DNA of 24,455 bases. Origin: a virus. Every line of letters begins with the position of its first letter. The stretch's first letter is position 1. The notes beneath the pieces are model-generated. The model saw nothing but the letters and a program-made list of their open reading frames with translations. It had not been told where the DNA came from and ran no database searches. Of this stretch, positions 7,820-23,887 are shown one piece after another. Location of the stretch: positions 1-24,455 of IMG/VR virus record IMGVR_UViG_3300037336_000334; one strand, written 5' to 3'. The position numbers and the translations under genes are program-made.

Positions 7820-7857
7820 CAATATTACACACAACACATTACTATAATAGTAACATG
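7820..7857 (-). promoter_or_regulatory. Phage late promoter, portal operon (Pd)
   Basis: On the minus strand CATGTTACTA (7857-7848) is followed after exactly 20 nt by TAATATTG (7827-7820), one base off the Bacteroidota -7 box TAnnTTTG. It is one of four sites with the same layout, each in front of a phage module. TTACTATAATAGTAA (7839-7853) is also a perfect palindrome overlapping the upstream element. Confidence 0.65.
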
Positions 7858-7873
7858 AGACAAAAAGCTATAC

Positions 7874-8002
7874 ATGGTGTCCTACGGACTGCTTAAGTGG
7901 TGGAGCGTTCCGCTCTTCACGGTGCGGAACGTCATATATCTCACAATCGAGCGCTTTGGTAATGAGCAATACGAAACTGAGCGGGTCGGTGTTTTGCGTT
8001 AA
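7874..8002 (+). CDS. Short GC-rich ORF (42 aa), possibly a structured RNA instead
   Basis: An ATG-initiated frame encodes 42 residues beginning MVSYGLLKWWSVPLF and ending VGVLR. The region has about 50% GC, whereas its flanks are very AT-rich, so it stands out as foreign or constrained. The peptide is Trp/aromatic-rich in its first half and charged in its second (ERFGNEQYETERV). The same DNA can also fold: CGTTCCGC (7906-7913) pairs perfectly with GCGGAACG (7924-7931), and GTCC-tac-GGAC lies at 7879-7889. Its stop codon touches the left arm of a long inverted repeat at 8001-8048 that could terminate a transcript. Whether it is a micro-gene or an RNA cannot be decided from one sequence. Confidence 0.4.
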   Translation: MVSYGLLKWWSVPLFTVRNVIYLTIERFGNEQYETERVGVLR

Positions 8003-8048
8003 ATAAGTTAATTTAACCCTTTGTATATCAGGGTTAAATTACTTATTT
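8001..8048 (+). terminator. Long inverted repeat, probable terminator of the 42-aa unit
   Basis: The left arm (8001-8020) and right arm (8030-8048) pair along 19 bp with one bulged T around a 9-nt loop; the inner part is AACCCT/AGGGTT. It is followed by TATATGTTTTTATG. It begins within the stop codon of the 42-aa ORF. Beyond it, 8050-8180 is AT-rich with no gene visible. Confidence 0.5.
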
Positions 8049-8180
8049 ATATGTTTTTATGTTTTTTGCTTTTTATTTAAACACCTGTTTTCTATTTGCT
8101 TTTTTATTACTTTCTCTTATTTAGAATTATTATAAATGTTTGATTAAAGTGCTGTAAATGTGTTTTTATGTCTTTTTATT

Positions 8181-8210
8181 TCCGTATTTATACGGAATTT
8201 ATTATCTTTA
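8181..8210 (+). promoter_or_regulatory. Promoter/operator of the plus-strand cargo operon
   Basis: TCCGTATTTATACGGA (8181-8196) is an inverted repeat with 7-bp arms. It contains the same CCGTA-N4-TACGG as the site before the small HTH gene (3459-3472). TATCTTTA (8203-8210) is one base from the -7 consensus TAnnTTTG, which would put the palindrome in the -33 to -7 spacer, a repressor position. The first gene starts 30 nt downstream. Confidence 0.5.
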
Positions 8211-8239
8211 AGTATTGAAAATCAATAAAATATAACATT

Positions 8240-8671
8240 ATGAGTACAGTAAAAAACGCTCCCAAAAATGGGCATGAGGTAAAAAGTTTACCAGGAGCAA
8301 AAAAAGAAACGCCTGCAGTAGTTGAAAAAAATTCGACCGAAGAAGCCGAAGCAAAAAAAGAAGTAATTGCTTTGCTTGACAAATTCAGACCAGAACCGCA
8401 CAAAAGCGCAGAAAGTAGAATTGAGAGAATGAAACAATTTGAAGCACTTTCAAATCGTTACGGAGTTTTAAAGTCAAAGGATAACGAACTAAGAACTTTT
8501 GAAGCAGGAAACGACAAGCTAAGCGCAAAAGTTGTTTTTAAAAATGCGCAAGGTTTTGAATTCGTAGTAAACAATTCAAACGTTATTGAAAAACTGATTG
8601 AAGCAGGAAAAAAAGAACTTTCTATACTGCTGAATGAAGCGGAAAACGAAGTTTTAACCTTTGACATCTAA
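8240..8671 (+). CDS. Hypothetical accessory protein (143 aa)
   Basis: This is the first gene of the plus-strand cargo operon. The N-terminal ~45 residues are low-complexity and charged (Lys, Glu, Ala, Pro), followed by a helical region (KKEVIALLDKFRPEPHKSAESRIERMKQFEAL). The C-terminal half is strand-rich (KLSAKVVFKNAQGFEFVV) and ends with a helix (NVIEKLIEAGKKELSILLNEAENEVL). It has no recognised family; I recall similar proteins on Bacteroidota mobile elements. It is followed at once by a strong terminator hairpin, so the downstream genes may be expressed at a lower level. A palindromic operator lies 45-60 nt upstream. Confidence 0.68.
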   Translation: MSTVKNAPKNGHEVKSLPGAKKETPAVVEKNSTEEAEAKKEVIALLDKFRPEPHKSAESRIERMKQFEALSNRYGVLKSKDNELRTFEAGNDKLSAKVVFKNAQGFEFVVNNSNVIEKLIEAGKKELSILLNEAENEVLTFDI

Positions 8672-8681
8672 ACTAAAAGAC

Positions 8682-8714
8682 AAAGCCCTATTTGTCGAGA
8701 ATAGGGCTTTTTTT
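8682..8714 (+). terminator. Rho-independent terminator or attenuator
   Basis: AAAGCCCTATT (8682-8692) pairs perfectly with AATAGGGCTTT (8700-8710) around a 7-nt loop, followed by more T. It lies between the first and second genes of the plus-strand operon. Confidence 0.75.
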
Positions 8715-8735
8715 AATCAACAAATATTATAAGCC

Positions 8736-8966
8736 ATGACGCAAACAACATTTCACGCCAAAAGTACAAATTCTACGCCATTAAGCGCACAAGTAAGACA
8801 AATTTTAAACGAAAAAGGTTTTTCTTTTTTGTTTAACTGGGATGATTACGCCCATTATAGAACCGAAGCAAAAAACGCTTTTAACAAAGCCTTAGCCATT
8901 GCGGAACTATTTATACAAAATACAGACTGTAACTCTGATTTATACGATTATGATTGCAACTGCTAA
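8736..8966 (+). CDS. Hypothetical accessory protein (76 aa)
   Basis: This is a small protein with a polar N-terminus (TQTTFHAKSTNSTPLSAQ), a central helical/aromatic part (VRQILNEKGFSFLFNWDDYAHYRTEAKNAFNKALAIAELF) and an unusual Asp/Cys-rich end (DCNSDLYDYDCNC). The three Cys and five Asp in the last 13 residues might bind metal, but this is speculation. Its last 17 nt overlap the SymE-like gene, so the two are coupled. No family is recognised. Confidence 0.6.
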   Translation: MTQTTFHAKSTNSTPLSAQVRQILNEKGFSFLFNWDDYAHYRTEAKNAFNKALAIAELFIQNTDCNSDLYDYDCNC

Positions 8967-9138
8967 AATACGAAAACTAAAAATTTCTTCATCATATCAC
9001 AAAGCATTATGGAAGAAAGCCACATTCAAACCGAAATTAACTATTTCGGGCGATTGGATGCAAAGAGCAGGTTTTGAAATTGGCGACAACGTGACCGTTT
9101 CCGTTTCTGATAATTTACTGATAATTCAAAAACTATGA
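8950..9138 (+). CDS. SymE-like toxin (62 aa)
   Basis: The segment KPKLTISGDWMQRAGFEIGD followed by NVTVSVSDNLLIIQKL (residues 27-62) matches the SymE toxin core (pattern P.L.L.G.W...AGF..G..V.V....L.I). SymE proteins have an AbrB/MazE-type fold; in E. coli SymE condenses or cuts nucleic acid and is repressed by an antisense RNA. The start MIATAKI at 8950 keeps the whole domain and overlaps the upstream gene by 17 nt; a start at 8899 would lie entirely within that gene. Its stop overlaps the next ATG (ATGA). No antisense promoter was identified, so a type I arrangement is not shown. It could instead act as a DNA-binding regulator. Confidence 0.72.
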   Translation: MIATAKIRKLKISSSYHKALWKKATFKPKLTISGDWMQRAGFEIGDNVTVSVSDNLLIIQKL

Positions 9139-9551
9139 TTATAAAAAGGTTTAACCCCGATTGTAAAAAGTCGGGTGAAACTGTTTTTTATATTCAATCT
9201 CACGGACTAAACGCAGGAAGACCACTAAAAAAACCAATTCCCAACAGTTGGGAAATAGAGATCAACAATAACAAAGCTTTTGAAATTTGTTTTGTTGTTT
9301 TCAATTCCAAGATTTTAAACAATTATTTGCGTGGTTCCGTCATTCCTTTTTTAAGTTTACACGAATACAAAAAAATTATTTCACCTTATTTATTAAAACC
9401 GATTTTAGAAGATGCAGTAAACCAAAAAATTAACGCCATTTCTAAAATTGATGCAGCACTGGAAGAGCTAGAGCAAAGGAAAGATTTATACAAACAACTT
9501 AAAAACGCTTTGAGTTTTGAAATACTAAAAAATATAAACGCCACTTTATAA
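9135..9551 (+). CDS. DUF6943-like protein coupled to SymE (138 aa)
   Basis: The motifs FYIQSHGLNAGRPLKKPIPNSW (residues 18-39) and a later GSVIPFLSLHEYKKII match what I remember of DUF6943, a Bacteroidota family of unknown function. The C-terminal ~45 residues (EDAVNQKINAISKIDAALEELEQRKDLYKQL) form a probable coiled coil. The gene starts inside the SymE stop codon (4-nt ATGA overlap). The tight coupling makes it a candidate partner, antidote or co-factor of the SymE-like protein. The stop codon lies within the terminator hairpin at 9536-9560. Confidence 0.68.
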   Translation: MIIKRFNPDCKKSGETVFYIQSHGLNAGRPLKKPIPNSWEIEINNNKAFEICFVVFNSKILNNYLRGSVIPFLSLHEYKKIISPYLLKPILEDAVNQKINAISKIDAALEELEQRKDLYKQLKNALSFEILKNINATL

Positions 9552-9561
9552 GTGGCGTTTT
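9536..9561. terminator. Terminator of the plus-strand cargo operon
   Basis: AAACGCCACTT (9536-9546) and AAGTGGCGTTT (9550-9560) form a perfect 11-bp stem with a 3-nt loop, overlapping the stop of the 138-aa gene. Confidence 0.7.
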
Positions 9562-9576
9562 GAATTAAAAAAAATT

Positions 9577-9616
9577 TCGCCGCACGGCGGCGAGTAGGGT
9601 GTTTTTTTTATTTTTA
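9577..9616. terminator. GC-rich hairpin between convergent operons
   Basis: TCGCCG (9577-9582) pairs with CGGCGA (9588-9593) around CACGG. A run of T follows on the plus strand from ~9602 and a run of A precedes it. With the hairpin at 9536-9560 it forms a double stop between the convergent cargo operons. Confidence 0.5.
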
Positions 9617-9618
9617 TT

Positions 9619-9927
9619 TTAAAAAAAATCTTCATCGTCAATATCTTCTACATCTTGTTCCAGTAATCTTTCTTCAATTGCTAAAAAGTTCCACGCTTCA
9701 ATTAAAATTTTTTCTTTTATTTTATCTGAAACATCATCGCCATCAAACCACTGCACTTCTGCAATTGAATCGTAAAACTCATCATAAGAAGAAAAATAAG
9801 CTTCGCCAACTTTATATCGTATAAACACACGAGGAAAACTCATTTTAATTATTGTTTCTTCTCCGTCATAGTGCTGATGATTCTCGCCCCACCAATAATG
9901 CTTATGTTCTTCAAATTTCTTCATCAT
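9619..9927 (-). CDS. Acidic hypothetical protein, last gene of the IbrAB operon (102 aa)
   Basis: The N-terminus is rich in His and Trp (EEHKHYWWGENHQHYDGEE), which might bind metal. A strand-rich middle follows (MSFPRVFIRYKVGEAYFSSYDEFYD), then a helix, then a very acidic C-terminus (EQDVEDIDDEDFF). The start overlaps the XRE gene by 17 nt (a second ATG lies at 9924). An acidic tail next to a DNA-binding protein could suggest an inhibitor or DNA mimic, but nothing more specific can be said. No family is recognised. Confidence 0.62.
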   Translation of the reverse strand: MMKKFEEHKHYWWGENHQHYDGEETIIKMSFPRVFIRYKVGEAYFSSYDEFYDSIAEVQWFDGDDVSDKIKEKILIEAWNFLAIEERLLEQDVEDIDDEDFF

Positions 9928-10156
9928 TAATTTTTAAGGTTAATTCTAAAACTTCTAATATAGCATACAACTGGTCCGCATTAGGTGAAAATTGACAACC
10001 TTCTATTCTAAGTATTGTATTTCTTGAAAACCCTACGGCATCAGCAAGTTGTTCCTGTGTCATTCCTTTTTGCACACGTGCCGTTTGGATTGCTTCCGCC
10101 ACTTTTTCACGCTTTCTTTCTATTAGCATTGATTCTACGATGTTTATATCTTTCAT
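9911..10156 (-). CDS. XRE-family HTH regulator (81 aa)
   Basis: This is a textbook XRE/Cro helix-turn-helix: KVAEAIQTARVQKGMTQEQLADAVGFSRNTILRIEG (residues ~18-53), followed by PNADQLYAILEVLELTLKI, the usual dimerisation tail. It probably binds the operon's own promoter, where an inverted repeat ATGTAAC-N6-GTTACAT overlaps the -7 box (13761-13780). The start MKDINIV at 10156 is chosen because its ATG overlaps the IbrA-like stop as ATGA. The longer start at 10171 would overlap by 19 nt. Confidence 0.8.
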   Translation of the reverse strand: MKDINIVESMLIERKREKVAEAIQTARVQKGMTQEQLADAVGFSRNTILRIEGCQFSPNADQLYAILEVLELTLKINDEEI

Positions 10157-11286
10157 AATAATTGTGTCCACTTTTTAATAATTTCGTCCTCTCTCTTCAA
10201 TTTGTTTTTAAATAAAATCTGTCCTTTCGTATAATTAAATTCAAAATCTCTGCTCCAGGTAATATTACCTTCCCAGTCACATAGTAAAATGCGCTTTACC
10301 ATATATTTATTGGCTGCTACATCGTCAGTTTCTCCAAATCTACTCCATTGATATTCAAATATTTTTTTTAAATCTGGATGGATTGATTTTAACAAAAAAT
10401 CTTTATACTCTTTCCAGGTTTTAAAATTTTCAGGAAGTTTTTTTATAGAATAAATTAGGTTTTCTTTTCCATACATTGCAGCTGTATGAACGCCTTTCAA
10501 TCTTTTTTCTAATTTGTCGTATGTTTCAGGCTCTAACTCCTGCAAATCAGTAAGACAACGAAATGCTTTTTCGTGTACTAAATTTGAAACTCGAAACATT
10601 TTTAAATTCCCGCCTAGCATGTACATTTTATCATAAACCTTATTGTACTTTAAGTTGTTTTCAATTAGATATTTCCAAACATCCGTATACCTCCAATCAA
10701 TAATTGGGTAAGCTTTGTGTGGTTCTGTTTTTCTACGTAACCAAAAAAGTTCAGAATCTTCGCCAAACATTACAAATCTCCTATCAGGACTTTCCTCAGC
10801 TCGAAGTCCAATTATAGAAACAAAACTTCCTTCAAAGTTTTTCCTGTTCTGCTGAGCCACCCAAAGATTAAACTTGTAAAATCGCTTTGGATATTTGTAA
10901 TCTAACTTTTGAATAGCTAAATCATTTTTTTCTCTTACCCATTCTTCTCCTTCTCCCCAAGCCCAAAGAAACAGTTGTTCGTGACTTGCGGCATTAGTCA
11001 TAAATATAGGGACTTGATACCATTGCGGAATAACATTTGGTTGTAGCATCGCCCATTCCACAAAATCAATTGTCCCTTGGTATTCCGCTTCTTGATCTTG
11101 AAAGTATAAAATAAATTTTCTATTCCTTTTCTTCGCTTCTTCATTTACTAAATAAAACAATACTGTACTGTCTTTTCCGCCTGAAAAAGCAAGTTGAATA
11201 TTATCATAATTATCAAATAAAAATGATATTCTTTTGTTTACGGCTGATAAAACATCAAGCGTTCCTCTTATTACCGTTCTAGCCAT
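10153..11286 (-). CDS. ibrA: IbrA-like phosphoadenosine phosphosulfate reductase-family protein (377 aa)
   Basis: The PP-loop SGGKDST at residues 35-41 is the pyrophosphate-binding motif of the PAPS reductase/adenine nucleotide alpha-hydrolase superfamily. Further conserved stretches are YFQDQEAEYQGTIDFVE (after the PP-loop), GLRAEESPDRR, WLRRKTEPHKAYPIIDWRYTDVWKYL and HPDLKKIFEYQWSRFG. The length and the neighbouring ParB-like gene match IbrA (DUF3440-containing). IbrA/IbrB were named as regulators of immunoglobulin-binding proteins in E. coli, and the chemistry of IbrA is not established. DndC, which acts in DNA phosphorothioation, belongs to the same superfamily. It lies 4 nt after ibrB and overlaps the XRE gene by 4 nt. 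Confidence 0.82.
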   Translation of the reverse strand: MARTVIRGTLDVLSAVNKRISFLFDNYDNIQLAFSGGKDSTVLFYLVNEEAKKRNRKFILYFQDQEAEYQGTIDFVEWAMLQPNVIPQWYQVPIFMTNAASHEQLFLWAWGEGEEWVREKNDLAIQKLDYKYPKRFYKFNLWVAQQNRKNFEGSFVSIIGLRAEESPDRRFVMFGEDSELFWLRRKTEPHKAYPIIDWRYTDVWKYLIENNLKYNKVYDKMYMLGGNLKMFRVSNLVHEKAFRCLTDLQELEPETYDKLEKRLKGVHTAAMYGKENLIYSIKKLPENFKTWKEYKDFLLKSIHPDLKKIFEYQWSRFGETDDVAANKYMVKRILLCDWEGNITWSRDFEFNYTKGQILFKNKLKREDEIIKKWTQLL

Positions 11287-11290
11287 TGTC

Positions 11291-11833
11291 TTATATTTCA
11301 GGTTTAATATCTTCCTCTACTTCTACAATTTGTCGTTCAATAGAATAAGGAACGCCCATAATTTCACTTGCAATTCCTTTTAATCCAATTAATCGCTGCA
11401 CTTCTTCCAAAGTCATTCCTAACTCTTTCATTATTTTTATTTCATCCCAGCCCGATTTTAACATTCCAACTAAAGAGGCTTGAAGTTCTACTTCGTGTTT
11501 TCCCCTGGCTCGATTATGCCGAATAGTCGACGCCATACGGTCGCTAATATCTTTTTCAATTACTGAAACAGGCAACATTCCGTTTTCACGTTCAAAAATA
11601 TTCTTATAACGAACCATTATTGTGTATCTGTGAAAGCCATCTACAATAATGTATTTATCTGTTTCCTTATTGTAAAAACAAACGATTGGCATTGTATATC
11701 CATCACTTTTGATGCTTTGATACAATAAATCCATTTCTCTTTTAGCAACGTGATTCGGGTTGTAATCATTGGCTTCAATTTTATCCAATGCCACTGCAAT
11801 CACATTATATACTGGGCTTATAAACTTTTTCAT
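11291..11833 (-). CDS. ibrB: IbrB-like ParB/sulfiredoxin-fold protein (180 aa)
   Basis: The N-terminal ~115 residues are ParB-like: LDKIEANDYNPNHVAKREMD (residues 16-35), IVDGFHRY (63-70) corresponding to the ParB 'DG.HR' box, and TIRHNRARGKH (103-113) corresponding to the 'N..R' box. A helical HTH-like segment follows (DEIKIMKELGMTLEEVQRLIGL). This size and partner match IbrB. ParB-fold proteins bind CTP or ATP, and some act as nucleases or regulators; which applies here is unknown. The start overlaps the helicase stop as ATGA, so helicase, IbrB and IbrA are translated as a coupled set. Confidence 0.82.
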   Translation of the reverse strand: MKKFISPVYNVIAVALDKIEANDYNPNHVAKREMDLLYQSIKSDGYTMPIVCFYNKETDKYIIVDGFHRYTIMVRYKNIFERENGMLPVSVIEKDISDRMASTIRHNRARGKHEVELQASLVGMLKSGWDEIKIMKELGMTLEEVQRLIGLKGIASEIMGVPYSIERQIVEVEEDIKPEI

Positions 11834-13056
11834 AAAATTTCCTTTAATTCCTTCTTACTAATACTTTTAAAATACTCCGCTTGACTGACTTTCTTTTGAA
11901 TATTCAAATCAAATAACTTTTCTAATCCTACATTTCCAGTCATATCAAAATAATGGACGTCCTGTTCCTGTCCTGTTCTAAAACTTCGTCTTGATCCTTG
12001 ATGTTTCAATCCGTAATCCCATATTTTATCCCAATAAATTGTATAAGGAAGATGCTGCAAGTTCAATCCTAAACTTTCTTTTTGATAACTCAAAACGGTC
12101 GCTTTTGGGAAACGTTTCTTTAATTCTTCTTGACTTATTATAAATCTCGCAAAAATGATATGCTTGTCTTCTGGATAGCTTTCAAAATGTTTTTCTAAAG
12201 CTTGAAATTTACTTTCGCTCACGCAATAACCCATTTGCATTTTAGTGGTCATTGCTAGAAAAATATTGTTGTTCATTGCCAAAAGTTTTTCATCGTCCAA
12301 ATACTTTTCTTTGATGAAATCATATTCTTTTTTATCATCTTCTGAAATCTCATAAGCAATATCTGAATAGATCTGCTTTATGTTCAACTGCAAATCGCAC
12401 TCAAAAACATAGTGGCGAATTAAGGAATACAGATAGTCAATGTTTTCATAACCCGAAATAAACTCTTTCGTGTAGCTTTTATGTCCAAAGGTTTTAGTTA
12501 CGGTTGTAACTTCGCAAAATGTGTTTTTAAATTCCGCTATCGGCATACCGAGAATTTTTGGCGAAAGAAATTCCATCTGGCTCCATAAGTCGAGCAAGTT
12601 CCGAGTAATTGGCGTACCGTTTAAAATCAACTTATATTCGACCATTTTACTCAAAGTCAATAGTCGTTGCGTTCGCTTTGCATCGTGATTTTTAATTTTC
12701 AAACTTTCGTCCACAACCAAAAAACACCGCCAAGCTGTTGAAATTTTCTTGTACAATTGTAAATATTCTCGATCTGACATTCCAATACTTTCAACGCCAA
12801 TGTAAATAATGTTTTCGCATTTGAACCCGCCCCATTTATTTATTTCATCAATAATGGACGGAATATTGTCTTTAGGTTTAATCGTTCGCAATGGACCAAC
12901 CCACACCACTAAATCTACACCAGGAACAGAATTTACAAGTTCAATTGTAGGCCGTGTTTTCGCCGTTCCCGCTTCCATGAACAAAGCGCCAAATTTACCT
13001 TTGATAAATTTGTCTTTCACTTCTTTTTGCTGTGGCAATAAAGCTATCTTTTCCAT
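11830..13056 (-). CDS. SNF2-type superfamily 2 helicase (408 aa)
   Basis: The helicase motifs appear in order: motif I MEAGTAKT (27-34), motif II VVDES (114-118), motif III LNGTPITRN (145-153), motif V SLGLNLQ (328-334) and motif VI QGSRRSFRTGQEQ (353-365). The QGSxxRxxRxGQ type of motif VI is characteristic of SNF2/Rad54-like translocases. At 408 aa it is a compact, single-unit protein without extra DNA-binding or nuclease domains. Motif I ends TAKT instead of the usual GKT. It overlaps the upstream 107-aa gene by 13 nt and IbrB by 4 nt. It likely moves on or remodels double-stranded DNA for the neighbouring IbrA/IbrB pair. Confidence 0.82.
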   Translation of the reverse strand: MEKIALLPQQKEVKDKFIKGKFGALFMEAGTAKTRPTIELVNSVPGVDLVVWVGPLRTIKPKDNIPSIIDEINKWGGFKCENIIYIGVESIGMSDREYLQLYKKISTAWRCFLVVDESLKIKNHDAKRTQRLLTLSKMVEYKLILNGTPITRNLLDLWSQMEFLSPKILGMPIAEFKNTFCEVTTVTKTFGHKSYTKEFISGYENIDYLYSLIRHYVFECDLQLNIKQIYSDIAYEISEDDKKEYDFIKEKYLDDEKLLAMNNNIFLAMTTKMQMGYCVSESKFQALEKHFESYPEDKHIIFARFIISQEELKKRFPKATVLSYQKESLGLNLQHLPYTIYWDKIWDYGLKHQGSRRSFRTGQEQDVHYFDMTGNVGLEKLFDLNIQKKVSQAEYFKSISKKELKEIL

Positions 13057-13367
13057 TCCTCAATTGGTTTTGATTCGGTGAAATTTACTTTTTCTGGAGT
13101 TTTCTTTGTGATTACAAAGTGCGGAACCATCTTGCGAGATTCGCTATTAAACCACGCTTCTTTCTTCGTAGAATACTGCAATGATTTCTTTTCAAGAATC
13201 CAAGCACTTATCCAGTGCGCTTCGCTTTTTGTCACATTATAATCCTGTCCGTAATATTGGGAAGAAGGAATCAGCGCTTCAGAACCATCAAAGGCAACGG
13301 CCTTTAAACATTTTTCGGAAATATCGGTAAGGCTTTCAAGCCTTACCGAATAACATAGCACTTTCAT
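13044..13367 (-). CDS. Hypothetical protein of the IbrAB-helicase operon (107 aa)
   Basis: The N-terminus is strand-rich (MKVLCYSVRLESLTDIS; CLKAVAFDGSEALIPSSQYYGQ), followed by a helical and aromatic part (EAHWISAWILEKKSLQYSTKKEAWF) and a charged C-terminus. The 'VRLESLTDISEKCLKAVAFDGSEALIP' stretch has the look of a small beta-domain that might bind nucleic acid, but I know no family for it. The start codon shares one base with the upstream stop (TAATG), and its end overlaps the helicase start by 13 nt. It is therefore a co-expressed, probably functional member of the system. Confidence 0.65.
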   Translation of the reverse strand: MKVLCYSVRLESLTDISEKCLKAVAFDGSEALIPSSQYYGQDYNVTKSEAHWISAWILEKKSLQYSTKKEAWFNSESRKMVPHFVITKKTPEKVNFTESKPIEEWKR

Positions 13368-13816: not shown

Positions 13817-15517
13817 TTAAAACACACCAGGATCACTTCCTGAAACTTGTGAATGTGTGTTTACATACTGCACAAATGCTGGCCTGTAGATTAGATATTT
13901 GAACGCATCGCTAAAATTAGTAGAAAACATTGGGCGCAAATGCATCGCTAATTTTTCGGATGATTTGTCTTTATGAATAGATCTACTTCCGTTTCTGTCG
14001 GTTTTTACCAATATTTTTGTGAGTTCTAGCGATGATTTAGTGCATTTACACTGAAACTTATCTATTTTTAATTTAATTAAACCTGGAGCCGTTTCTGCCA
14101 TCATGGTTTTGGCAAAATTAAATTCTTCTTCTTGGTAAATTGTACCTTGATTTAATGATTTTAAATTAACAATCCATCCGGTAGCAACACCGTTATCTGT
14201 TTCAATAGCTTTTTTTATAGCGGTAGCCCAATCTCGTTTGGTTTTAGAATTTTGATTACCCGAACGGTCATAGTATAATTCTAAAATTTTAACTTTGTGA
14301 TGTTTAAAGAATTCTCTAAATTTTTGTCCTAATTGAATTTCGTTCTCTGGAGCCAAAGTATAAAATTCTTTTAGTAGATATAAGTAGTTGCCTTTTGGCT
14401 GCGCTATAATCATACTACACATATCTCCAAAGTCAACGCCTGCTTCTAGTTTCGCTTCGTGATTAATATATCGCAAAGCCAAACTACTCTCTACAATCTT
14501 ATCTGTGATGGCAAACTGGTCATAATAAGAATTTATGACGCCATCTTCATAATAATGATGTTCGCCCAGGTTTCCATAAAATTTTTCGCCTTTAGTTAAA
14601 TTTACTTTAAACGAGCAAATGGCGCTTTTAAATTCTTCTATTCCTAAAGCCTTCAAACTGTCTTTAAAAAATCCTTCGGTTAAAATGTCAACATTCACAA
14701 ACGAAGAAACAACATAGAAAAATGTTAAATCTTTTCGAACTCTAATCCAGCGTTCTGTCCAGCGCACTAAGTTTTTCTTTAATGATTGCACTTTTATTTT
14801 ATCACCATCTTTTTGGGCATTGTACAGCTCGCATTTTATATCGTTTAATACAATAGAAACTTCCAGCGCCATTTTCACTTGTTCGAGTTGCATGTTTTTT
14901 TCAGTCTGCAAAATCCATTCATCATCGCCATCAAGAATATTTGGCATATCGGTAGTAAATGTTCGACCACGATAAAAAACAGAATGACCAAAATGAGCAT
15001 ATTCTCCACGAATAGCAGGCGTTAATTTTTTTAATCTATCTGATTTTAATAATCTGGCTTCATCACCATAAATATGCTGATAAGAGTTTCCTGCTAATCC
15101 TGATGGTTGATCTAAACTTCCAAGATTAAAAAACACACCATTAAAAATAGATATTGTGTGTTTATAAATTTCAACAGGCTTATATGGCAGCTTGAAATGT
15201 TTAGGCGGACGTTGATCTGTCACATAATGAATTCCTTCTTTCCATCCTTCGCGGTTCCAACCTTCAAGCAGTGTTGGAACTACATTTTTCAACGCATTAG
15301 TGTACGTGTCTGAAACAAACACTTGTTGACTGCGTGGCATGTCGTAAATAATGTTCTGGGAACGTTTTCCCATGATTTCAGTCGTTTTTGCAGTTGCACG
15401 ACCTGCCACAAGATATAAGTCTTTTGGCTGCATTAAATCAATCAAAATCGTTAGCCAATTGGCATAAATCGAATTAACGTTTAAATCATCAAAGTTTACG
15501 TGCGTTCTCCTGCTCAT
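13817..15517 (-). CDS. terL: Terminase large subunit (566 aa)
   Basis: This is the ATP-driven DNA-packaging motor and headful or cos nuclease. The ATPase part has Walker A GRATAKTT (39-46) and Walker B HIYGDEA (148-154). The nuclease part has an RNase H-like Asp strand GVDFGDM (360-366), then YYDRSGN (415-421), and a late Asp in NFSDAFKYLI. The length is typical. Its start overlaps the 211-aa gene by 29 nt. No clear terminator follows, so late transcription may run into the cargo operon promoter region. In most tailed phages portal follows directly; here it is ~6 kb away. Confidence 0.9.
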   Translation of the reverse strand: MSRRTHVNFDDLNVNSIYANWLTILIDLMQPKDLYLVAGRATAKTTEIMGKRSQNIIYDMPRSQQVFVSDTYTNALKNVVPTLLEGWNREGWKEGIHYVTDQRPPKHFKLPYKPVEIYKHTISIFNGVFFNLGSLDQPSGLAGNSYQHIYGDEARLLKSDRLKKLTPAIRGEYAHFGHSVFYRGRTFTTDMPNILDGDDEWILQTEKNMQLEQVKMALEVSIVLNDIKCELYNAQKDGDKIKVQSLKKNLVRWTERWIRVRKDLTFFYVVSSFVNVDILTEGFFKDSLKALGIEEFKSAICSFKVNLTKGEKFYGNLGEHHYYEDGVINSYYDQFAITDKIVESSLALRYINHEAKLEAGVDFGDMCSMIIAQPKGNYLYLLKEFYTLAPENEIQLGQKFREFFKHHKVKILELYYDRSGNQNSKTKRDWATAIKKAIETDNGVATGWIVNLKSLNQGTIYQEEEFNFAKTMMAETAPGLIKLKIDKFQCKCTKSSLELTKILVKTDRNGSRSIHKDKSSEKLAMHLRPMFSTNFSDAFKYLIYRPAFVQYVNTHSQVSGSDPGVF

Positions 15518-16662: not shown

Positions 16663-16663
16663 C

Positions 16664-17260
16664 TCAATATTTCTTTAGGTTAGCATTCGTAAATAGTTCT
16701 TTTCTAAAATCATACAATCCTTTGCTGTTGGCAAAAACATATTGTTCGTAATGCGCATTTTCTGACCAGTTTCCTGAACCTTCGACGACGAAATGAAAGT
16801 CGTGTGTTTTTAACAAACAAACTTTGGCGTGTGACCAGGCATATTGCACTTTAAAATTTGGTCTAGTCGAAACCATCGCCATCAAGTTGTCTATCGTCAC
16901 TGGATTTCGTTTAATCATACTGTCCGAAATCATCAGCGTAACTTGCTCTACCATTCCTTTATCATGCAATTCTATTAATGCATCAATAACACGGCGTGAA
17001 ATAGAATAGGTTGACGCATACAATTCTTTTATTGGATAATGCTTTGCCACCATCGGGATGAACGTAAACGCATTAAACGCTGTATCGGATTGAAGGAAGA
17101 AAAATTCTTCTGGAGTTGGAACACGTATTAAATCACTTTCGAGATTTGAAACTTTTTGATAGTGTGAAACAATGTATTTCGACACAAACAACTCAGACAA
17201 CTTTTCTTCCTTTGTTTCCTGTTTTTTTTCTGGATTGAAAAATCTATTTCCCATCAGCAA
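16664..17260 (-). CDS. Phospholipase D-like nuclease family protein (198 aa)
   Basis: Residues 143-168 read SHAKVCLLKTHDFHFVVEGSGNWSEN. H144 and K146 form the HxK of the PLD (HKD) motif, followed by the GSGN(W)S turn typical of PLD-type nucleases such as Nuc. The usual Asp four residues after Lys is replaced (KVCLLK), but Asp154 and Glu160 lie nearby. Only one HKD motif is present, so an active enzyme would be a dimer. Its place between capsid/tail genes and the terminase is unusual. It might act in packaging, host DNA degradation or recombination. It overlaps the 295-aa gene by 17 nt; MGNRFF at 17254 is an alternative start. Confidence 0.68.
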   Translation of the reverse strand: MLMGNRFFNPEKKQETKEEKLSELFVSKYIVSHYQKVSNLESDLIRVPTPEEFFFLQSDTAFNAFTFIPMVAKHYPIKELYASTYSISRRVIDALIELHDKGMVEQVTLMISDSMIKRNPVTIDNLMAMVSTRPNFKVQYAWSHAKVCLLKTHDFHFVVEGSGNWSENAHYEQYVFANSKGLYDFRKELFTNANLKKY

Positions 17261-18131
17261 TACCTAATCTAGTGTTTACTAAATTCAATCGGTATTGTCT
17301 GTCATCAATCGCTTGATTGAGTTTTTGTTTTTCGGCATCGCTTTTGGCTTTTTTTAATGCGGCTCTTTTTTTGCTTAAAAATGTCGCTGATGATGTTCTG
17401 TATTTTGCCAATTCTTCATTGGTCATTAGGTCAACTTCACGCTTGGCAACTACTTCTGTGAATAATTTGTGTTTGCCTAATAGTTCGCCTGTTTCTTTGT
17501 AGTGGTTTAATTCGTTCCACAACAAACTATTTTCTGTAAAGGCAGCATCACAAAGCGTAACGATCTCTTTCTTTTCGTCTTCGGTTCCTTCAAAAGTTTT
17601 TTCGGCTATTTGTTGCACAATCGCGTGAAGTTCTTGATATCGTTTATGTGCAGCAATTCTTTTTCCTACGACTACATAAATGATTTCTGGACAATCAGCA
17701 TCGTTTAAATAAGGAAACTCTTCGCGTATTGGCGTTAATTCTTCGCCTGGTATTACTTTATAACCTTCGGGTGCGTTTTCGGGCATTTCAATATGGTCAA
17801 ATAATTTATTGGCTAGTTTAGCATCTTCTGAACTTTCGGGAAAATCGTTCAATTCTTTAAAATCAAGAACTTCCTCTTCTTTTACTTCAATTTCATTTGC
17901 ATCTACTGGCGAGTGAAGTTCTAAATCAGTAATGCCATTCAATGTTTTTAAATCATAAAGCAAATTCTTTAATCCATCTTCAGTAAAGCCAGAACGATTG
18001 TAGCGCGCTTCAAATTGATGGCTTTTGTTTGGCAGTTGCTTATACAATTCAAATGCTTTGTTAAACTGTTCGTACTTGTTGTCAGATAGATTTTGAAGAA
18101 AACCTAAGACGATTATTTTTATACTTTTCAT
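17244..18131 (-). CDS. Phage protein of unknown function (295 aa)
   Basis: This is the first gene of the packaging transcript. The N-terminal half contains short strands and helices; the middle is acidic (EIEVKEEEVLDFKELNDFPESSEDAKL). The C-terminal third is a long basic helical region (KYRTSSATFLSKKRAALKKAKSDAEKQKLNQAIDDRQYRL), probably a coiled coil. No catalytic motif is seen. I recall similar proteins beside terminases in Bacteroidota prophages without a known role. It lies ~26 nt behind the predicted transcription start of promoter 18163-18200. Confidence 0.65.
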   Translation of the reverse strand: MKSIKIIVLGFLQNLSDNKYEQFNKAFELYKQLPNKSHQFEARYNRSGFTEDGLKNLLYDLKTLNGITDLELHSPVDANEIEVKEEEVLDFKELNDFPESSEDAKLANKLFDHIEMPENAPEGYKVIPGEELTPIREEFPYLNDADCPEIIYVVVGKRIAAHKRYQELHAIVQQIAEKTFEGTEDEKKEIVTLCDAAFTENSLLWNELNHYKETGELLGKHKLFTEVVAKREVDLMTNEELAKYRTSSATFLSKKRAALKKAKSDAEKQKLNQAIDDRQYRLNLVNTRLGIADGK

Positions 18132-18145
18132 AAAATATTATTTTT

Positions 18146-18179
18146 AGTAATTACTTAAAGTACAAATTTGGTAATTACC
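18146..18179. promoter_or_regulatory. Two GTAATTAC palindromes in the packaging promoter
   Basis: AGTAATTACT (18146-18155) and GGTAATTACC (18170-18179) share the palindromic core GTAATTAC and are spaced 24 bp centre to centre. One is in the promoter spacer and one near the transcription start. GGTAATTACC recurs at 7802-7811 before the portal operon. Confidence 0.42.
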
Positions 18180-18200
18180 TTTTTGAAAAGTAGTAACATG
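18163..18200 (-). promoter_or_regulatory. Phage late promoter, packaging operon (Pc)
   Basis: On the minus strand CATGTTACTA (18200-18191), 20 nt, then CAAATTTG (18170-18163), one base off TAnnTTTG. It follows the terminator of the capsid operon by 9 nt, so one transcript stops and the next starts here. Confidence 0.65.
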
Positions 18201-18209
18201 ACACAATAC

Positions 18210-18241: not shown

Positions 18242-18261
18242 TCTCCAATCTAAAAATCAAA

Positions 18262-19089: not shown

Positions 19090-19116
19090 AATAAATATTT
19101 TTTAGCTTAAAGCGAA

Positions 19117-21285
19117 TTAAGCGATTACACGTTTCGTTTCTCTCCAAGTTCCATCAACTAATGTCAATTGAACGTAATCAGCAGCGGTATCTAACACAGC
19201 AGCCGAAGCCATTGCAATATTCCCTACAGTAGATAATGTTACATTTACACCAACGGCATTTGTTCCGTAGATAGAAATTGTTTTGCCTTGAACACCATTA
19301 ATTACAGAAGTAATTGCTGTTGTGGCAGTATGTGCCGATTTGAATATCGTTCCTAAGTCAGCATCAACTGTAGCACCATTAAATGTTGCTTCTTCTGTTG
19401 GTGCAGTTTCTGGAACAGTTGTTCTTGATAATTCAAAAGGAACGCCACCATCTTCTGTAACGAATAAGGTTAATGTTCCACCTGATTTTAAATCAAAGTT
19501 TGCATTACCTGCTAATTTTAATTTTGCTACGTCGTGAACTACGTTTGTAGTTGCTACTAAACCAATGTTTCCTTTAATTTTAACTACTTGACCTTTATAG
19601 TCGCTAAAGTTTTCAATTTCGGTTACTGTTGAAGTTCTTCCTTTTGCAGCATAAACATTATTGAAAGATAATTTCAATTTTGTAGAACCATTTTCGTGAA
19701 ACGGTACAAATGTATCTTCTGGAAAAATTGGCGCCGTGTTAGACCAAACAGTTTGCACTTTAAATTCGTCTGGATCACCTTCATCAATTTTGTTTCCGAT
19801 ATGTAAAAATCGAACACCCATTTTATAGTCAGCCCAGATATAGATCATTCTTTTTAAGTACTCAAATTTGTACATTGATTTTTCTGCCGGAACGTTTTCT
19901 AAAATTTCGATGTTATCATCAAATGTGATGAACATGAAGTTAGAACCTGCCATATCCACTAATCTTTCAAACTTAACGTTCGGATAGTCTTTTGGCGTTT
20001 CAGGATAACCAGAATAATCATTGTTTAATCCAAACAAAGTTTCACTTCTGCGTTTGTAAGCTCTCAACCATTCGTCAGATAAGTATAAAACCAATCCTTG
20101 TTGTTCTCTCACATCTTGTGGCAGTTTTTTCACCATGTTATCTACATAATCTACAATATTTGTAGTTGTAGGCATACCTAAATCAAACGGACGGTATTTT
20201 TTAGTCACATCACGAGCTTGTTGTGCTAAGTATAAAATTCCGTTTTGACGGTTAATTGCTTTTCCTGCTTCGGTAGCATCGTCTGGCGTTGCTACAAATA
20301 TTCCTTTTATCGTGGCAACTCTATCTTCGATACGTGCTTTTTTGTCGATTTCAGAAACTAAGAAACGAACGAATGAATCTTTATAAGGTTGTGAACCTTC
20401 TTTGTTCATCATGTTTAACCACGAAGCTTCAATTTTTTGCAAGAAGTAACCAACGTATTCGATGTCGATATTGATTGGGAAAATTTGTCCTTCTTCTGCT
20501 TGAATTGTTTGCTTGTTTTTTGGCAACCAAGGCAATTTTCGTGCTTGCGAAATTTCGGCAGTAGCAATATTTCCGTCAGCTACTTTATCGTCAACTTTTG
20601 TTCTTGTTGTCCAGAAAGATGGCAAACCATAACTATCACGTGTAAGTGATGTTAACGAAGTTGGATTTTCGCGATAGAATAACGCTAAATCGTCGTTTAA
20701 TTTTTGAACTGTTGGCTGATCGGTAAAATCGGTAGCAGAAACTTGTAACGCTCCGTTTGCTCTCAATAGTGCGCTTTTATTCCAAGGTCTATCGATAGCA
20801 TCATACGATTTGTTTGAAGCAAACAAATGCGTGTCTGAATGTACTACTTTCATGTTTGGATTGTTGTTTTTAATAATTGCACCGGTGTCGCCAACTGGTT
20901 CGTTAATCAGTTTTTGAATCGTTGCGCCCATTTCTGTTTGCTTCAACTGAATCGCTTTTAACGCGGCTAAAGTTTGCTTATCGCCTTTTTCTTCTTTAGC
21001 GATTGTTTCAAGTTCTGCTGCAGTCAATTCTAGTTCTGCAACCATTGCATCGATTTCGTCTTGAATAGCTTTTAATTCAAGCGTGTTTTCAGTCATCAAA
21101 CTGATGTCTTTGTTTAGTGCTTTTTTAAGTTTTTCAACTTCTTCGGCACTCATACTTTTTTTAAGTTGCGCTTCTTGATCATCAGAGAAAGCAACTTGCG
21201 TTCCTTCGGCATTAAGTGGTAATTGTTCGAGCCCAAAAAAGGCTAAAAGCATTCCGACAGTTTTTGCCATAAATTTCCATTTCAT
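19117..21285 (-). CDS. Major capsid protein with extra N- and C-terminal domains (722 aa)
   Basis: This is the longest gene of the window, directly downstream of the S49 head protease as in HK97-type phages. Residues ~35-125 are helical and charged (QEAQLKKSMSAEEVEKLKKAL, ELKAIQDEIDAMVAELELTAAELETIAKEEKGD). This is a coiled-coil scaffold or delta-like domain of the kind removed by the protease. The middle (roughly 150-530) would be the HK97-fold part, with phrases such as QAEEGQIFPINIDIEYVGYFLQ and YKFEYLKRMIYIWADYKMGVRFL. The last ~190 residues are Ala/Thr/Gly/Val-rich beta structure (GGTLTLFVTEDGGVPFELSR; GKTISIYGTNAVGVNVTLSTVGN), probably an Ig-like or decoration domain. An alternative start is MAKTVG at codon 6. 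Confidence 0.8.
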   Translation of the reverse strand: MKWKFMAKTVGMLLAFFGLEQLPLNAEGTQVAFSDDQEAQLKKSMSAEEVEKLKKALNKDISLMTENTLELKAIQDEIDAMVAELELTAAELETIAKEEKGDKQTLAALKAIQLKQTEMGATIQKLINEPVGDTGAIIKNNNPNMKVVHSDTHLFASNKSYDAIDRPWNKSALLRANGALQVSATDFTDQPTVQKLNDDLALFYRENPTSLTSLTRDSYGLPSFWTTRTKVDDKVADGNIATAEISQARKLPWLPKNKQTIQAEEGQIFPINIDIEYVGYFLQKIEASWLNMMNKEGSQPYKDSFVRFLVSEIDKKARIEDRVATIKGIFVATPDDATEAGKAINRQNGILYLAQQARDVTKKYRPFDLGMPTTTNIVDYVDNMVKKLPQDVREQQGLVLYLSDEWLRAYKRRSETLFGLNNDYSGYPETPKDYPNVKFERLVDMAGSNFMFITFDDNIEILENVPAEKSMYKFEYLKRMIYIWADYKMGVRFLHIGNKIDEGDPDEFKVQTVWSNTAPIFPEDTFVPFHENGSTKLKLSFNNVYAAKGRTSTVTEIENFSDYKGQVVKIKGNIGLVATTNVVHDVAKLKLAGNANFDLKSGGTLTLFVTEDGGVPFELSRTTVPETAPTEEATFNGATVDADLGTIFKSAHTATTAITSVINGVQGKTISIYGTNAVGVNVTLSTVGNIAMASAAVLDTAADYVQLTLVDGTWRETKRVIA

Positions 21286-21308
21286 AGTGAATAGGTTTTG
21301 ATTAATAA

Positions 21309-22193
21309 TTAATTTTTATATACTGAGTTAATTTCAGCCAACATAATTGCCAATTTGATTGCTTTTTGCATCGAACCTATAGAATCTATAAGATTTGCTT
21401 CGAGTGCTTGCTCTGCTCCAAAAGTTTTACCGGTAACAATACCAGGAACTTTTAAATCAAGGTTTGGTCTTTTTGCTTTTACAGCGTTTTGAAAGTTAAT
21501 TGCCATTGGCGACAGCATTTCTGCTTTTATCATGTCATACTTTCCTTCCATCGCCAAACGAAACGATTCGTTTTTATTAGCACTTTCTTCTGGATAGACT
21601 TCGTGAAAAGTATATCCTAAACTTTCTAAATATTTTCGGTTATCCATCCATGACAATACCACGCCAATTGAGCCAATTGTTGCAGAAATATTATTGGATG
21701 CCATGAGATGATCTGTGCAAGAAACGGCTGCATATAAATGGGCAGAACAACATTGATCATACAATCCGATTACGGGTTTTGTTTTTGTTAATCCGAATTC
21801 TACAAACGGCGCAATAGCAGAAACGCTTCCGCCCGGTCCGTCGATGTTTAATATGGTAGCGATGATGTTAGGGTTAGAATCGGCTGCTTTTAATGCGGCA
21901 ACGATTTCGTCTGCGCCATACGTGCACCAATCGCCATATTTGATAATAGCGCCAATCATATCGACAACGGCAATTGTTCCTGGAGGAACGTTTCCGTTTT
22001 CTTGAATTCTTACTTTTGTTCCAGAATCAGAAACATAATTGACTAATGCTTTTGGTTCTGTGGCAGCTGCAGGAAGTTCTACCTTTTCGCCAGTGATTAT
22101 TTTGTGTGCTATTGGACCAAAAACAGCCAATCCTTCAAACGACATCGCCCAAAGTCCGCGTGATAATTCGCTAATAAGTGGATTGATTTTCAT
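21309..22193 (-). CDS. S49-family head maturation protease (294 aa)
   Basis: This is a SppA/ClpP-fold serine peptidase that would cleave the capsid scaffold. The motif LNIDGPGGSV (115-124) is the oxyanion/substrate-strand region. S150 in QCCSAHLYAA aligns with the nucleophile of the SppA motif 'SGGYYiA'. ASNNISATIGSIGVV (165-179) is the conserved strand after it. The usual glycine pair after the nucleophile is replaced by Ala-His. The catalytic Lys is probably in the C-terminal half (KTFGAEQALEANLIDSIG region typical of S49). The gene lies 23 nt before the major capsid gene and ~13 nt behind the predicted transcription start of promoter 22212-22249. Confidence 0.85.
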   Translation of the reverse strand: MKINPLISELSRGLWAMSFEGLAVFGPIAHKIITGEKVELPAAATEPKALVNYVSDSGTKVRIQENGNVPPGTIAVVDMIGAIIKYGDWCTYGADEIVAALKAADSNPNIIATILNIDGPGGSVSAIAPFVEFGLTKTKPVIGLYDQCCSAHLYAAVSCTDHLMASNNISATIGSIGVVLSWMDNRKYLESLGYTFHEVYPEESANKNESFRLAMEGKYDMIKAEMLSPMAINFQNAVKAKRPNLDLKVPGIVTGKTFGAEQALEANLIDSIGSMQKAIKLAIMLAEINSVYKN

Positions 22194-22211
22194 GATACTT
22201 CTAATTTTTTA

Positions 22212-22249
22212 CGAAGTTGCGTAAATAGAAAACTATTTATAGTATCATG
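22212..22249 (-). promoter_or_regulatory. Phage late promoter, capsid operon (Pb)
   Basis: On the minus strand CATGATACTA (22249-22240), 20 nt, then CAACTTCG (22219-22212). The -7-like box is the weakest of the four (two mismatches to TAnnTTTG), but the spacing is identical. ACTATTTATAGT (plus strand, ~22232-22243) is also palindromic. No gene lies in 22194-22272. Confidence 0.55.
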
Positions 22250-22272
22250 TTTTTTAAGGGTTTTTTGCAATT

Positions 22273-22443
22273 TTAATCTAAATCGTTTTCTACTGCTTGA
22301 ATTATTTTTAATTCTAGCAATATGATTTCGGTTTCAACTTTACCTAATTGCAGGTAAAATTTATCTCCAATAGAAGACAACATCAGCATCTGATCAACTA
22401 ACAATGCTTTTTTTAATTTTAGTTTACGAAGTTGTTCTTCCAT
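22273..22443 (-). CDS. Small helical protein after the spanin-like gene (56 aa)
   Basis: The frame starts MEEQLRKLKLKKALLVDQML and ends AVENDLD. It overlaps the spanin-like gene by 20 nt and fills an otherwise empty stretch up to the capsid promoter, which supports it being a gene. The heptad-like Leu spacing throughout (LRKLKLKKALL, LELKIIQAVE) suggests a single coiled coil. There is no signal peptide or membrane helix. It may interact with another phage protein; its role is unknown. Confidence 0.6.
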   Translation of the reverse strand: MEEQLRKLKLKKALLVDQMLMLSSIGDKFYLQLGKVETEIILLELKIIQAVENDLD

Positions 22444-22948
22444 CTATTTTGTTAATTAAGGTTGTGATTGCTTGTGAATTTGCGGATAAGTATTTGAAGG
22501 CAAAGAAAAAACCAATAATTACTATTAGCACTATTCCTGCGACTATGTATAAAATAAAACTGCTGTCAAACTCTTCGGTTTTTTCTTTTGATTTTTCTTT
22601 ATAGGTTTCAAACAATTGTTTGTTTTGGCGACTCATTTCTTCTATTGCAGATGCGAAACAATCAACATTGGACACTTGTCCTGTTTTGTCATAAACTGTT
22701 CGCAAAGTCGTTCCTTGTCGGTTTACCGTATAGATTGTTGTGTCTTTATAATTAAATTTCGGGATGACAAGCGACACGGTGTCGCCTTTTCTTTTGCGAG
22801 TAAACTCGTTGCTTTCAACAGTGCTTGTTTCTCCTTTTGATTTTTGTGATGTCTTCATGATGTCACACGAAAAACACAACAATAACATGAAGGTGACAAA
22901 CAAAAAAAGTACTATTTTGGCTAGTATAGAAGTTCTCATTTTTACCAT
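22424..22948 (-). CDS. Probable unimolecular spanin (174 aa)
   Basis: The N-terminus is a signal sequence (KIVLFLFVTFMLLLCFS) ending in Cys28 in a lipobox-like FSC-D context, so it is probably a lipoprotein anchored by lipid. A second hydrophobic helix lies near the C-terminus (131-153, FILYIVAGIVLIVIIGFFFA). Between them is a ~100-residue hydrophilic stretch with coiled-coil character (AIEEMSRQNKQLFETYKEKSKEKTEEF). One lipid anchor and one C-terminal membrane helix is the layout of unimolecular spanins (T1 gp11 type), which join inner and outer membranes in the last step of lysis. The start overlaps the endolysin stop (7 nt). The lipobox has Cys instead of Leu at -3, a weak point. Confidence 0.65.
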   Translation of the reverse strand: MVKMRTSILAKIVLFLFVTFMLLLCFSCDIMKTSQKSKGETSTVESNEFTRKRKGDTVSLVIPKFNYKDTTIYTVNRQGTTLRTVYDKTGQVSNVDCFASAIEEMSRQNKQLFETYKEKSKEKTEEFDSSFILYIVAGIVLIVIIGFFFAFKYLSANSQAITTLINKIDGRTTS

Positions 22949-23316
22949 CTTGCTTTAGTTCCTCGAATATCATAATGAACAAACCCTTTGTAAACTCCAA
23001 TTCCGCCTTGTTTCATTTTTCCTTCAGCAATTAACTTTTCAATTACTGCAGCTAATTTTTTTGGAGTATAATTCTTCGCATTAATATCAGCAGCCGAAGC
23101 CGTAAGGTGTTGGCTGTTTTTTGCTCCACCTACTTTTTTGTTATGCGATGCAGTTCTGTAGCCGCTTCCTGTTATAGAAACACTTTCTTTAATGTGATCG
23201 CGCAATACTTGCAAATTGTTTGCGACTTCTTGAACATTTGTTATATATTTTTCTGGAACTATTGTTCCATCGTTGCAGTCAAATTCTTGACGAGTAAAAT
23301 TTTTAGTCAGTTGCAT
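22942..23316 (-). CDS. Endolysin, peptidase M15 family (124 aa)
   Basis: This is a zinc D-Ala/L-Ala-type peptidase that would cut peptidoglycan cross-links. The motif SGYRTASHNKKVGGAKNSQH then LTASAADI (51-78) contains zinc ligands H70 and D77. FVHYDIRG (112-119) supplies the third ligand H114, with D116 nearby. This is the M15_3 arrangement at its normal length for a phage enzyme without a cell-wall binding domain. There is no signal peptide, so release depends on the holin. It starts at the holin stop (1-nt overlap) and overlaps the spanin-like gene. Confidence 0.88.
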   Translation of the reverse strand: MQLTKNFTRQEFDCNDGTIVPEKYITNVQEVANNLQVLRDHIKESVSITGSGYRTASHNKKVGGAKNSQHLTASAADINAKNYTPKKLAAVIEKLIAEGKMKQGGIGVYKGFVHYDIRGTKARW

Positions 23317-23840
23317 TATTCTTCTGGATTATTAGTTTCTTTTGGTATTTCTAAATTCTCGTTAAATTTTTGAATTTTCTTGATCCATCCCATCGGCGGA
23401 AACTTCCCGTTTGTTATTACAGAAACATTCATCAATGCCGAACCTGCAGGATAGAGAAAAACTGTAATTCGTGTTACAAGCACTAAATATTCTTGCACAG
23501 CAGTATTTGTTTTTGTGATGTGGTTTAATCCTTCAAATAAAATTCCAACCATAACCACCAGCGTAATTTTTAAAGCAACTCCGAGAAAATTTTTCTTAAA
23601 AGTGAAATCTTTTTTTACAAACGCGTGCAAATAACTGCCAACAATGTGATCTATAACAATCGCCAACAACACCACCGAAATATAATCTTGATTAACGATA
23701 GACCAATTGGTAAAGGTTTCTATAATATAGGCTATTGGGCTAAACCCTAACGATAAAAATAAACTAGATTTTAGTTTCGCTAGCACGGTTCCTTTATGAA
23801 TGGCTATTAAATTGGCTGTGATAAATTTTGGAATACTCAT
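23316..23840 (-). CDS. Phage holin (174 aa)
   Basis: Hydrophobic segments lie around SLFLSLGFSPIAYII, ISVVLLAIVIDHIVGSYLHAF, FLGVALKITLVVMVGILF and EYLVLVTRITVFLYPAGSAL, giving three or four membrane passes. The phrase VIDHIVGSYLHAFVKKDFTFKK resembles the 'D...G...A..k....s...' motif of the Phage_holin_4-type family. It precedes the endolysin and would form the pore releasing it. The start MSIPKF at 23840 is chosen because the more upstream ATG (23870) falls inside the promoter spacer, before the -7 box. The resulting leader would be only a few nucleotides. Confidence 0.82.
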   Translation of the reverse strand: MSIPKFITANLIAIHKGTVLAKLKSSLFLSLGFSPIAYIIETFTNWSIVNQDYISVVLLAIVIDHIVGSYLHAFVKKDFTFKKNFLGVALKITLVVMVGILFEGLNHITKTNTAVQEYLVLVTRITVFLYPAGSALMNVSVITNGKFPPMGWIKKIQKFNENLEIPKETNNPEE

Positions 23841-23849
23841 TTTTTTTAT

Positions 23850-23887
23850 CAAAAATAGAATGACTTTCATTCTAAAATAGTAACATG
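23850..23887 (-). promoter_or_regulatory. Phage late promoter, lysis operon (Pa)
   Basis: On the minus strand CATGTTACTA (23887-23878), 20 nt, then TATTTTTG (23857-23850), a perfect TAnnTTTG. The spacer contains AGAATGA-CTT-TCATTCT (23857-23873), an inverted repeat with 7-bp arms that touches the -7 box and could be an operator. Confidence 0.7.

Follow-up and report, generated by a model that had tools for sequence, protein, structure and literature searches.

The window analysed here, a virus record of 24,455 bases (IMG/VR record IMGVR_UViG_3300037336_000334) that represents a phage fragment lacking the early region and the tape-measure gene, carries on its minus strand four copies of the 10-mer CATGWTACTA, each followed by a -7-like box at the head of a late operon. 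We consider it very likely that these sites are activator-dependent late promoters, in which the phage word replaces the -33 element, the primary sigma factor of the host reads the -7 box and the phage protein p186, whose gene adjoins the first late promoter on its upstream side, is the likely activator. The elements concerned are the following.

23894..24445, minus strand: p186 (phrog_21888), proposed late activator, 183 amino acids from a GTG start, frame open to the contig end
23878..23887, minus strand: site a word CATGTTACTA, predicted at -42 to -33, putative promoter of the lysis operon
23850..23857, minus strand: site a -7 box TATTTTTG, predicted start near 23845
22240..22249, minus strand: site b word CATGATACTA, head protease/capsid operon
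22212..22219, minus strand: site b -7 box CAACTTCG, predicted start near 22207
18191..18200, minus strand: site c word CATGTTACTA, operon from the 295-amino-acid gene through p566
18163..18170, minus strand: site c -7 box CAAATTTG, predicted start near 18158
7848..7857, minus strand: site d word CATGTTACTA, p92/portal operon
7820..7827, minus strand: site d -7 box TAATATTG, predicted start near 7815

The preliminary description of this DNA had placed the words at 23887-23878, 22249-22240, 18200-18191 and 7857-7848 with no further copy, and an exact count agrees: the window holds exactly four, all on the minus strand, against a chance expectation of 0.17, and none of 100 shuffles reaches four. 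Its further observations on the window were borne out as well, since a -7-like 8-mer lies exactly 20 nucleotides downstream of every copy, all four sites are intergenic and head late modules (before the holin, the S49 head protease, the 295-amino-acid gene and the pair of p92 and the 458-amino-acid gene), and the word-to-gene distances of 38-60 nucleotides hold once the holin start is set at 23840. The start given by the open reading frame caller, 23870, is the first in-frame start but lies upstream of the -7 box, and relatives align from residue 11, so that 23840 is probably the true start; it would leave a leader of ~5 nucleotides. A weight matrix built from relatives only ranks the four window sites at the top (15.1, 14.4, 13.7 and 10.2, the next best at 8.4), but the best scores in Markov shuffles average 12.5 with the same matrix, which alone is thus not decisive for significance; as far as sequence can provide it, the proof that the window sites are real is their conservation in relatives and not the matrix score. 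A scan of the viral collection for CATGWTACTA-N-yAnnTTTG returned at least 119 stretches, with one match each among the matches listed.

Judged by its genes, the window phage is a Duneviridae-like, temperate-type siphophage of Bacteroidota. The matches are to Flavobacterium phages of Duneviridae type (the 722-amino-acid capsid gene has 65% identity to laban, NC_048834, and 43% to 6H, NC_021867), the late gene set and order are as in Labanvirus, Unahavirus and Ingelinevirus, with the early half of the genome lacking from the window, and the late gene order is common to the window and nearly 30 further contigs. Exact CATGWTACTA is nearly missing from these relatives (it occurs in 3 of 21 contigs, never at promoters), and exact-word conservation was dropped in favour of words sought phage by phage. 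For this, words were counted in an unsupervised manner in the four orthologous upstream regions of each relative, and the shared ones were listed without a preset target. The top shared word in most relatives is a private variant (CATGTTACAA, CCATGTCACA, CATGATACAC, ATGTCACAA, TTATGTCACA, CCGTGTCACAG or CATGTCTTAAA), and about 35 relatives have their own version at 3-5 late operon heads each (for example CATGTCACA, CATGTTACAA, CATATCACAA, TGTCTTAAA or TGTCCTTTT). A listing of every copy gives 3-5 per relative genome, nearly all of them at operon heads and on the late strand, with a fifth site found 50-56 nucleotides before the tape-measure gene.

While the word drifts, the architecture around it is fixed. 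The logo of 63 sites, aligned without gaps, consists of CATGTCACA, an unconserved spacer, A at +29 and TTTG at +32 to +35, so that the family logo reads CATGTCACA-N21-yAnnTTTG and CATGWTACTA is, by this comparison, only the version of the window phage. Among 62 sites outside the window that were chosen by the word alone, for which the -7 box is therefore independent evidence, the box is found at offset 28 in 50 and at offset 27 in 5, while any other offset accounts for 0-2. In a larger set of 121 sites, part of it found by a matrix that includes the -7 box, the spacing between word and box is exact to the base in about 100, an A stands at the predicted +1 (offset 40) in 90, and a -33 TTG at matching spacing is seen in just one. 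The preliminary description had counted absence from the orthologous intergenic regions of related phages against the motif; for the exact 10-mer this test would have misfired, as the word changes and the architecture stays constant, and it is the architecture, not the 10-mer, that was found to be shared. Words differ on average at 1.35 of 11 positions within a phage versus 3.06 between phages at the same operon, a comparison with some circularity, the words having been selected phage by phage.

Random copies throughout a host genome, which had likewise been named as a possible refutation, were not what we saw in whole host genomes. All three copies of CATATCACAA with a box in one 2.5 Mb genome lie within the prophage, as do 4 of the 7 word-plus-box matches in a second one; this concentration in the prophage argues that the sites do not belong to a host regulon. 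A prophage of this type is present in the cultured strain F. denitrificans DSM 15936, on contig C3 at about 465-487 kb. Off-site word-plus-box matches number 19 against a permuted-matrix mean of 44.5 at threshold 9, but we do not use this depletion as evidence because it is within the permuted spread at higher thresholds.

What could read a word that changes from phage to phage? The best-supported candidate is p186, the 183-residue product at 23894-24445 which the preliminary description had offered for binding tests. It matches the PHROG 21888 profile over residues 7-181 (E 2.7e-18), a family of unassigned function whose members include gp41 of phage 6H, and it is present in 15 of 15 relatives whose contigs span the locus. 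Contigs fetched by p186 homology alone (28-57% identity), which include prophages of Flavobacterium, of a Flavobacteriaceae isolate and of Winogradskyella, nearly all have their own word right after p186 and again ahead of the late operons that follow: L192 has three copies of CATATCACAA, L185 three of CATGTTACA and L189 GTTGTCACAG-like words, with L199 as the clear exception. In L142, a more distant relative of 6H, TGTGTCTTAAA-like words stand at the heads of four operons, and in three holin-fetched contigs that share only the holin neither p186 nor word sites were found. In Ingeline (a Cellulophaga phage), G010 and L188 a word also lies before the start of the operon leading to p186. As a separate observation, the protease promoter of L142 (8990-9090) contains a series of consecutive TGTCTTAA-like copies (at 9007 and 9022, then an incomplete third one), while the word is single elsewhere.

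The structure model of p186 is confident (predicted local distance difference test score, pLDDT, 85.7) and consists of a mixed N-terminal domain and three C-terminal helices. Searched both within the whole model and alone, the C-terminal domain has as its best structural match the end-binding helix-turn-helix (HTH) domain of Mu transposase, with Z-scores of 6.0 (71 residues) and 6.5 (67 residues), and further matches of the domain alone are to other DNA-binding domains; its fold is predicted to be HTH-like. The whole model has no significant Foldseek match in the PDB or the viral library, PDB sequence profiles do not match p186, and beyond phrog_21888 there is no Pfam, PHROG, NCBIfam or PDB sequence match, which does not by itself exclude a relation to Mu C, T4 MotA, CII or Ogr. 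The resemblance to the Mu transposase Ibeta end-binding domain (2ezk, 4fcy; Z 6.0-6.5 over 66-71 residues) comes with 13-14% identity, and p186 is no transposase; the likeness may reflect merely a common HTH arrangement. The product of gp46/phrog_23018 is also universal but was rejected as reader: it has no HTH, belongs to no family of known function and has structural neighbours in Ingeline.

The word and the predicted recognition helix of p186 (residues 152-162 of the model) also vary together. The third base of the word is C or T in the 29 phages compared, and among 181 p186 columns residue 157 ranks second in following it: R and K were confined to words with C, V, I and L to words with T, and Q accompanies either base. 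For the change of ACA to TTA in the word, residue 160 ranks first, with Y versus D, D and N. The two residues are one helical turn apart, both within the predicted recognition helix. We take this covariation as support, not proof, for p186 reading the word because the phages are related; together with the co-occurrence and the predicted fold it makes p186 the most likely reader. A late-activator role is thus newly proposed for phrog_21888, to which no function had been assigned earlier.

The arrangement extends beyond the closest relatives. In Ingeline a p186 homolog shows 24% identity, and at least three operons are preceded by the word TGTCCTTTTAA with an unchanged offset to the box. The late gene order is shared by a Porphyromonas gingivalis phage and the Bacteroides phage BT-TP2, with terminase and portal annotated in both and the major capsid protein annotated in the former; p186 homologs are detected in them by profile (E 7e-5 and 0.035), and a profile-profile comparison of the p186 group with the Bacteroidales group aligns nearly the full length (probability 92.5%, E 5e-7). 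The offset is unchanged with the word TGTCCTTT in Ingeline and the Porphyromonas and Bacteroides phages. In 28 Bacteroidales-type contigs, some of them near-duplicates, 54 of 75 copies of the word.GTCCTT[TC] are followed by the box at offset 28, against 0-5 at any other offset. Judged from these comparisons, the layout with phage-own words recurs in phages of two bacterial orders beside one conserved uncharacterised gene. We regard it as likely that this represents a phylum-wide late-transcription system, in which an ancient activator superfamily (p186 and its Bacteroidales homologs) would read a lineage-private word at constant distance from the host -7 box, word and recognition helix coevolving in phages of marine, freshwater, oral and gut Bacteroidota.

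In the mechanism that we propose there is no -33 TTG. Host RNA polymerase with the primary sigma factor would read only the -7 box (yAnnTTTG), and the phage-specific word of 9-10 base pairs, held at fixed spacing at about -42 to -33, would occupy the place of the -33 element. Primary-sigma promoters of F. psychrophilum (motifs SM1-3) have the -7 element TAnnTTTG, with the box at -12 to -5 (PMC9723704), and this position leads us to predict a start at offset 40, with the word spanning -42 to -33. The late sites have a -7 box of identical sequence, and placing it at -12 to -5 would put the start at the A-rich positions seen, but primary-sigma promoters of Bacteroidota have a -33 TTG where the late sites have the phage word; the text of that study mentions neither phage nor prophage anywhere. 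A phage-encoded activator, probably p186, would bind the word via its C-terminal HTH-like domain and recruit polymerase, acting as an activator rather than a repressor and contacting sigma or polymerase. The replacement of the -35/-33 element by an activator-type site at fixed spacing points to a class II activator, with the protein sitting where sigma region 4 would otherwise touch -33. Transcription would then start at all the sites under one protein, which would switch on the lysis, protease/capsid, packaging and portal operons and, in complete relatives, the tape-measure operon together. Since the word heads the operon leading to p186 in Ingeline, G010 and L188, the switch may in some relatives feed back on itself and be self-reinforcing.

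Promoters of the described kind could instead be read by the early LuxR-type protein (phrog_10300, laban gp54). This protein has a GerE-type HTH, occurs in 9 of 9 relatives with an early region and is annotated in Ingeline too, but its gene is distant from the late region, beside the repressor, and the Porphyromonas and Bacteroides records keep the promoter layout without an annotated LuxR. Sites of LuxR-type proteins are usually palindromic, which the word is not, and the recognition helix of p186 tracks the word, although LuxR sequences are too few for an equal test; we consider this reader improbable. An alternative sigma factor of phage or host, also allowed for in the preliminary description beside an activator, would read the word as a -35 element in the way ECF41 reads TGTCACA. 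Indeed TGTCACA, contained in the commonest word of the relatives, is the exact ECF41 -35 consensus, while the window words have TGTTACT or TGATACT instead. ECF41 promoters have the form TGTCACA-n16-CGTC (PMC3426412), but logo positions 23-26 show no preference for CGTC and the conserved box is TAnnTTTG at 28-35, so both spacer and downstream element differ, and ECF41 was rejected on the missing -10 element. The word also varies between phages of one host genus, and no sigma-like phage gene is seen among the conserved genes examined (half of the window genome is outside the record), which leaves a sigma factor very unlikely. Of the two readers envisaged earlier for a word covering or replacing -33, the activator is favoured over the alternative sigma factor, the downstream box being that of the primary sigma factor.

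The fixed spacing between word and box bears on whether the word might be an operator through which a repressor keeps ordinary late promoters silent in the prophage. Several relatives are prophages and the word overlaps the upstream edge of the promoter, but an operator would not need spacing exact to the base, and these promoters should be weak unaided because the -33 TTG is missing; we think it extremely unlikely that the word is such an operator. That similar short words are there by chance or were simply retained in homologous intergenic DNA of related phages with shared gene order is practically negligible and already contradicted by the results, given the unconserved spacer, the greater likeness of words within a phage than between phages at the same operon (with the circularity mentioned) and the same offset with a different word in another bacterial order.

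Several observations weigh against activator-dependent promoters read by p186. Some expected sites are weak or missing (before the protease in G012), L199 diverges, and the Bacteroides site after the p186 homolog has no good box. With Z under 8, the structural match of p186 is of middling quality and by itself does not demonstrate a function. The covariation counts phages of shared ancestry, with the TTA class probably representing one or two events and the T class at least three. Finally, p186 is not the sole conserved regulator, the LuxR-type phrog_10300 being present wherever the early region is covered.

Activator-dependent late or middle promoters are known as a kind from Mu C, T4 MotA, lambda CII and P2 Ogr. 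As in these systems, one phage protein would serve several promoters through a site replacing the -35 region while the host sigma box is kept; unlike them, p186 has no detected sequence relation to the named families, and the word is a single non-palindromic element of 9-10 base pairs that changes by lineage. In the open-licence literature we found no description of Bacteroidota phage late promoters of this family, of their private words or of the activator, although a subscription paper could exist, so within that literature the family, the words and the proposed activator are seemingly undescribed. The timing of late genes in Bacteroidota phages is little known, although the phylum is dominant in the gut and the sea. 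If our proposal is correct, a word fixed 20-21 nucleotides before a -7 box would serve as an annotation rule for mapping late operons in uncharacterised phages, and phrog_21888 and its relatives would gain a function. Dozens of activator-word pairs differing by 1-2 bases or residues would form a natural series for the protein-DNA code, and orthogonal, inducible promoters might become available for Flavobacterium and Bacteroides genetics.

The genes and the terminator around the four sites are listed below. The names of p566, p458 and the 722-residue capsid protein follow from synteny because the late genes of the Porphyromonas phage and BT-TP2 are annotated in the same order.

23316..23840, minus strand: holin, first gene after site a, start corrected to 23840
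21309..22193, minus strand: S49 head maturation protease, first gene after site b
19117..21285, minus strand: probable major capsid protein (phrog_21862), by homology to annotated Porphyromonas phage capsids
18210..18241, minus strand: predicted intrinsic terminator of the preceding operon, 14-pair stem and T tail, 10 nucleotides before site c
17244..18131, minus strand: 295-amino-acid protein, function unassigned (phrog_21662), first gene after site c
13817..15517, minus strand: 566-amino-acid protein p566, putative terminase large subunit by synteny with PP754931 and PQ571279, no family match of its own
7522..7800, minus strand: 92-amino-acid protein p92 (phrog_26140), first gene after site d
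6149..7525, minus strand: 458-amino-acid protein p458 (phrog_22277), putative portal by synteny with PP754931 and PQ571279

Promoters c and d contain an additional element, the palindrome GTAATTAC (often GGTAATTACC), whose only three copies in the window all lie there:

18171..18178, minus strand: palindrome GTAATTAC, between the word and the -7 box of site c
18147..18154, minus strand: palindrome GTAATTAC, second copy at site c
7803..7810, minus strand: palindrome GTAATTAC, just before the start codon at site d

Its offset is kept in about 10 relatives (+20 in c, +45 to +53 in d), and several Bacteroidales-type contigs also have it in promoter c. It may be the operator of a second regulator of operons c and d.

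The cassette at 9911-13367 of the window, with p107 and SNF2-like, ParB-like, PAPS-reductase-like and HTH genes, is far more alike between phages than the flanking genes (ParB-like 90-91% identity to 6H and G008, capsid 44-62%) and is placed differently within the late region, for example between p275 and pk295 in 6H. Because of this higher identity than its neighbours and its differing position, the comparison suggests that the cassette was recently exchanged as a unit. In the Porphyromonas phage PP754931, several small genes (L213:8569-9063 and others) are annotated as 'acr candidate protein'.

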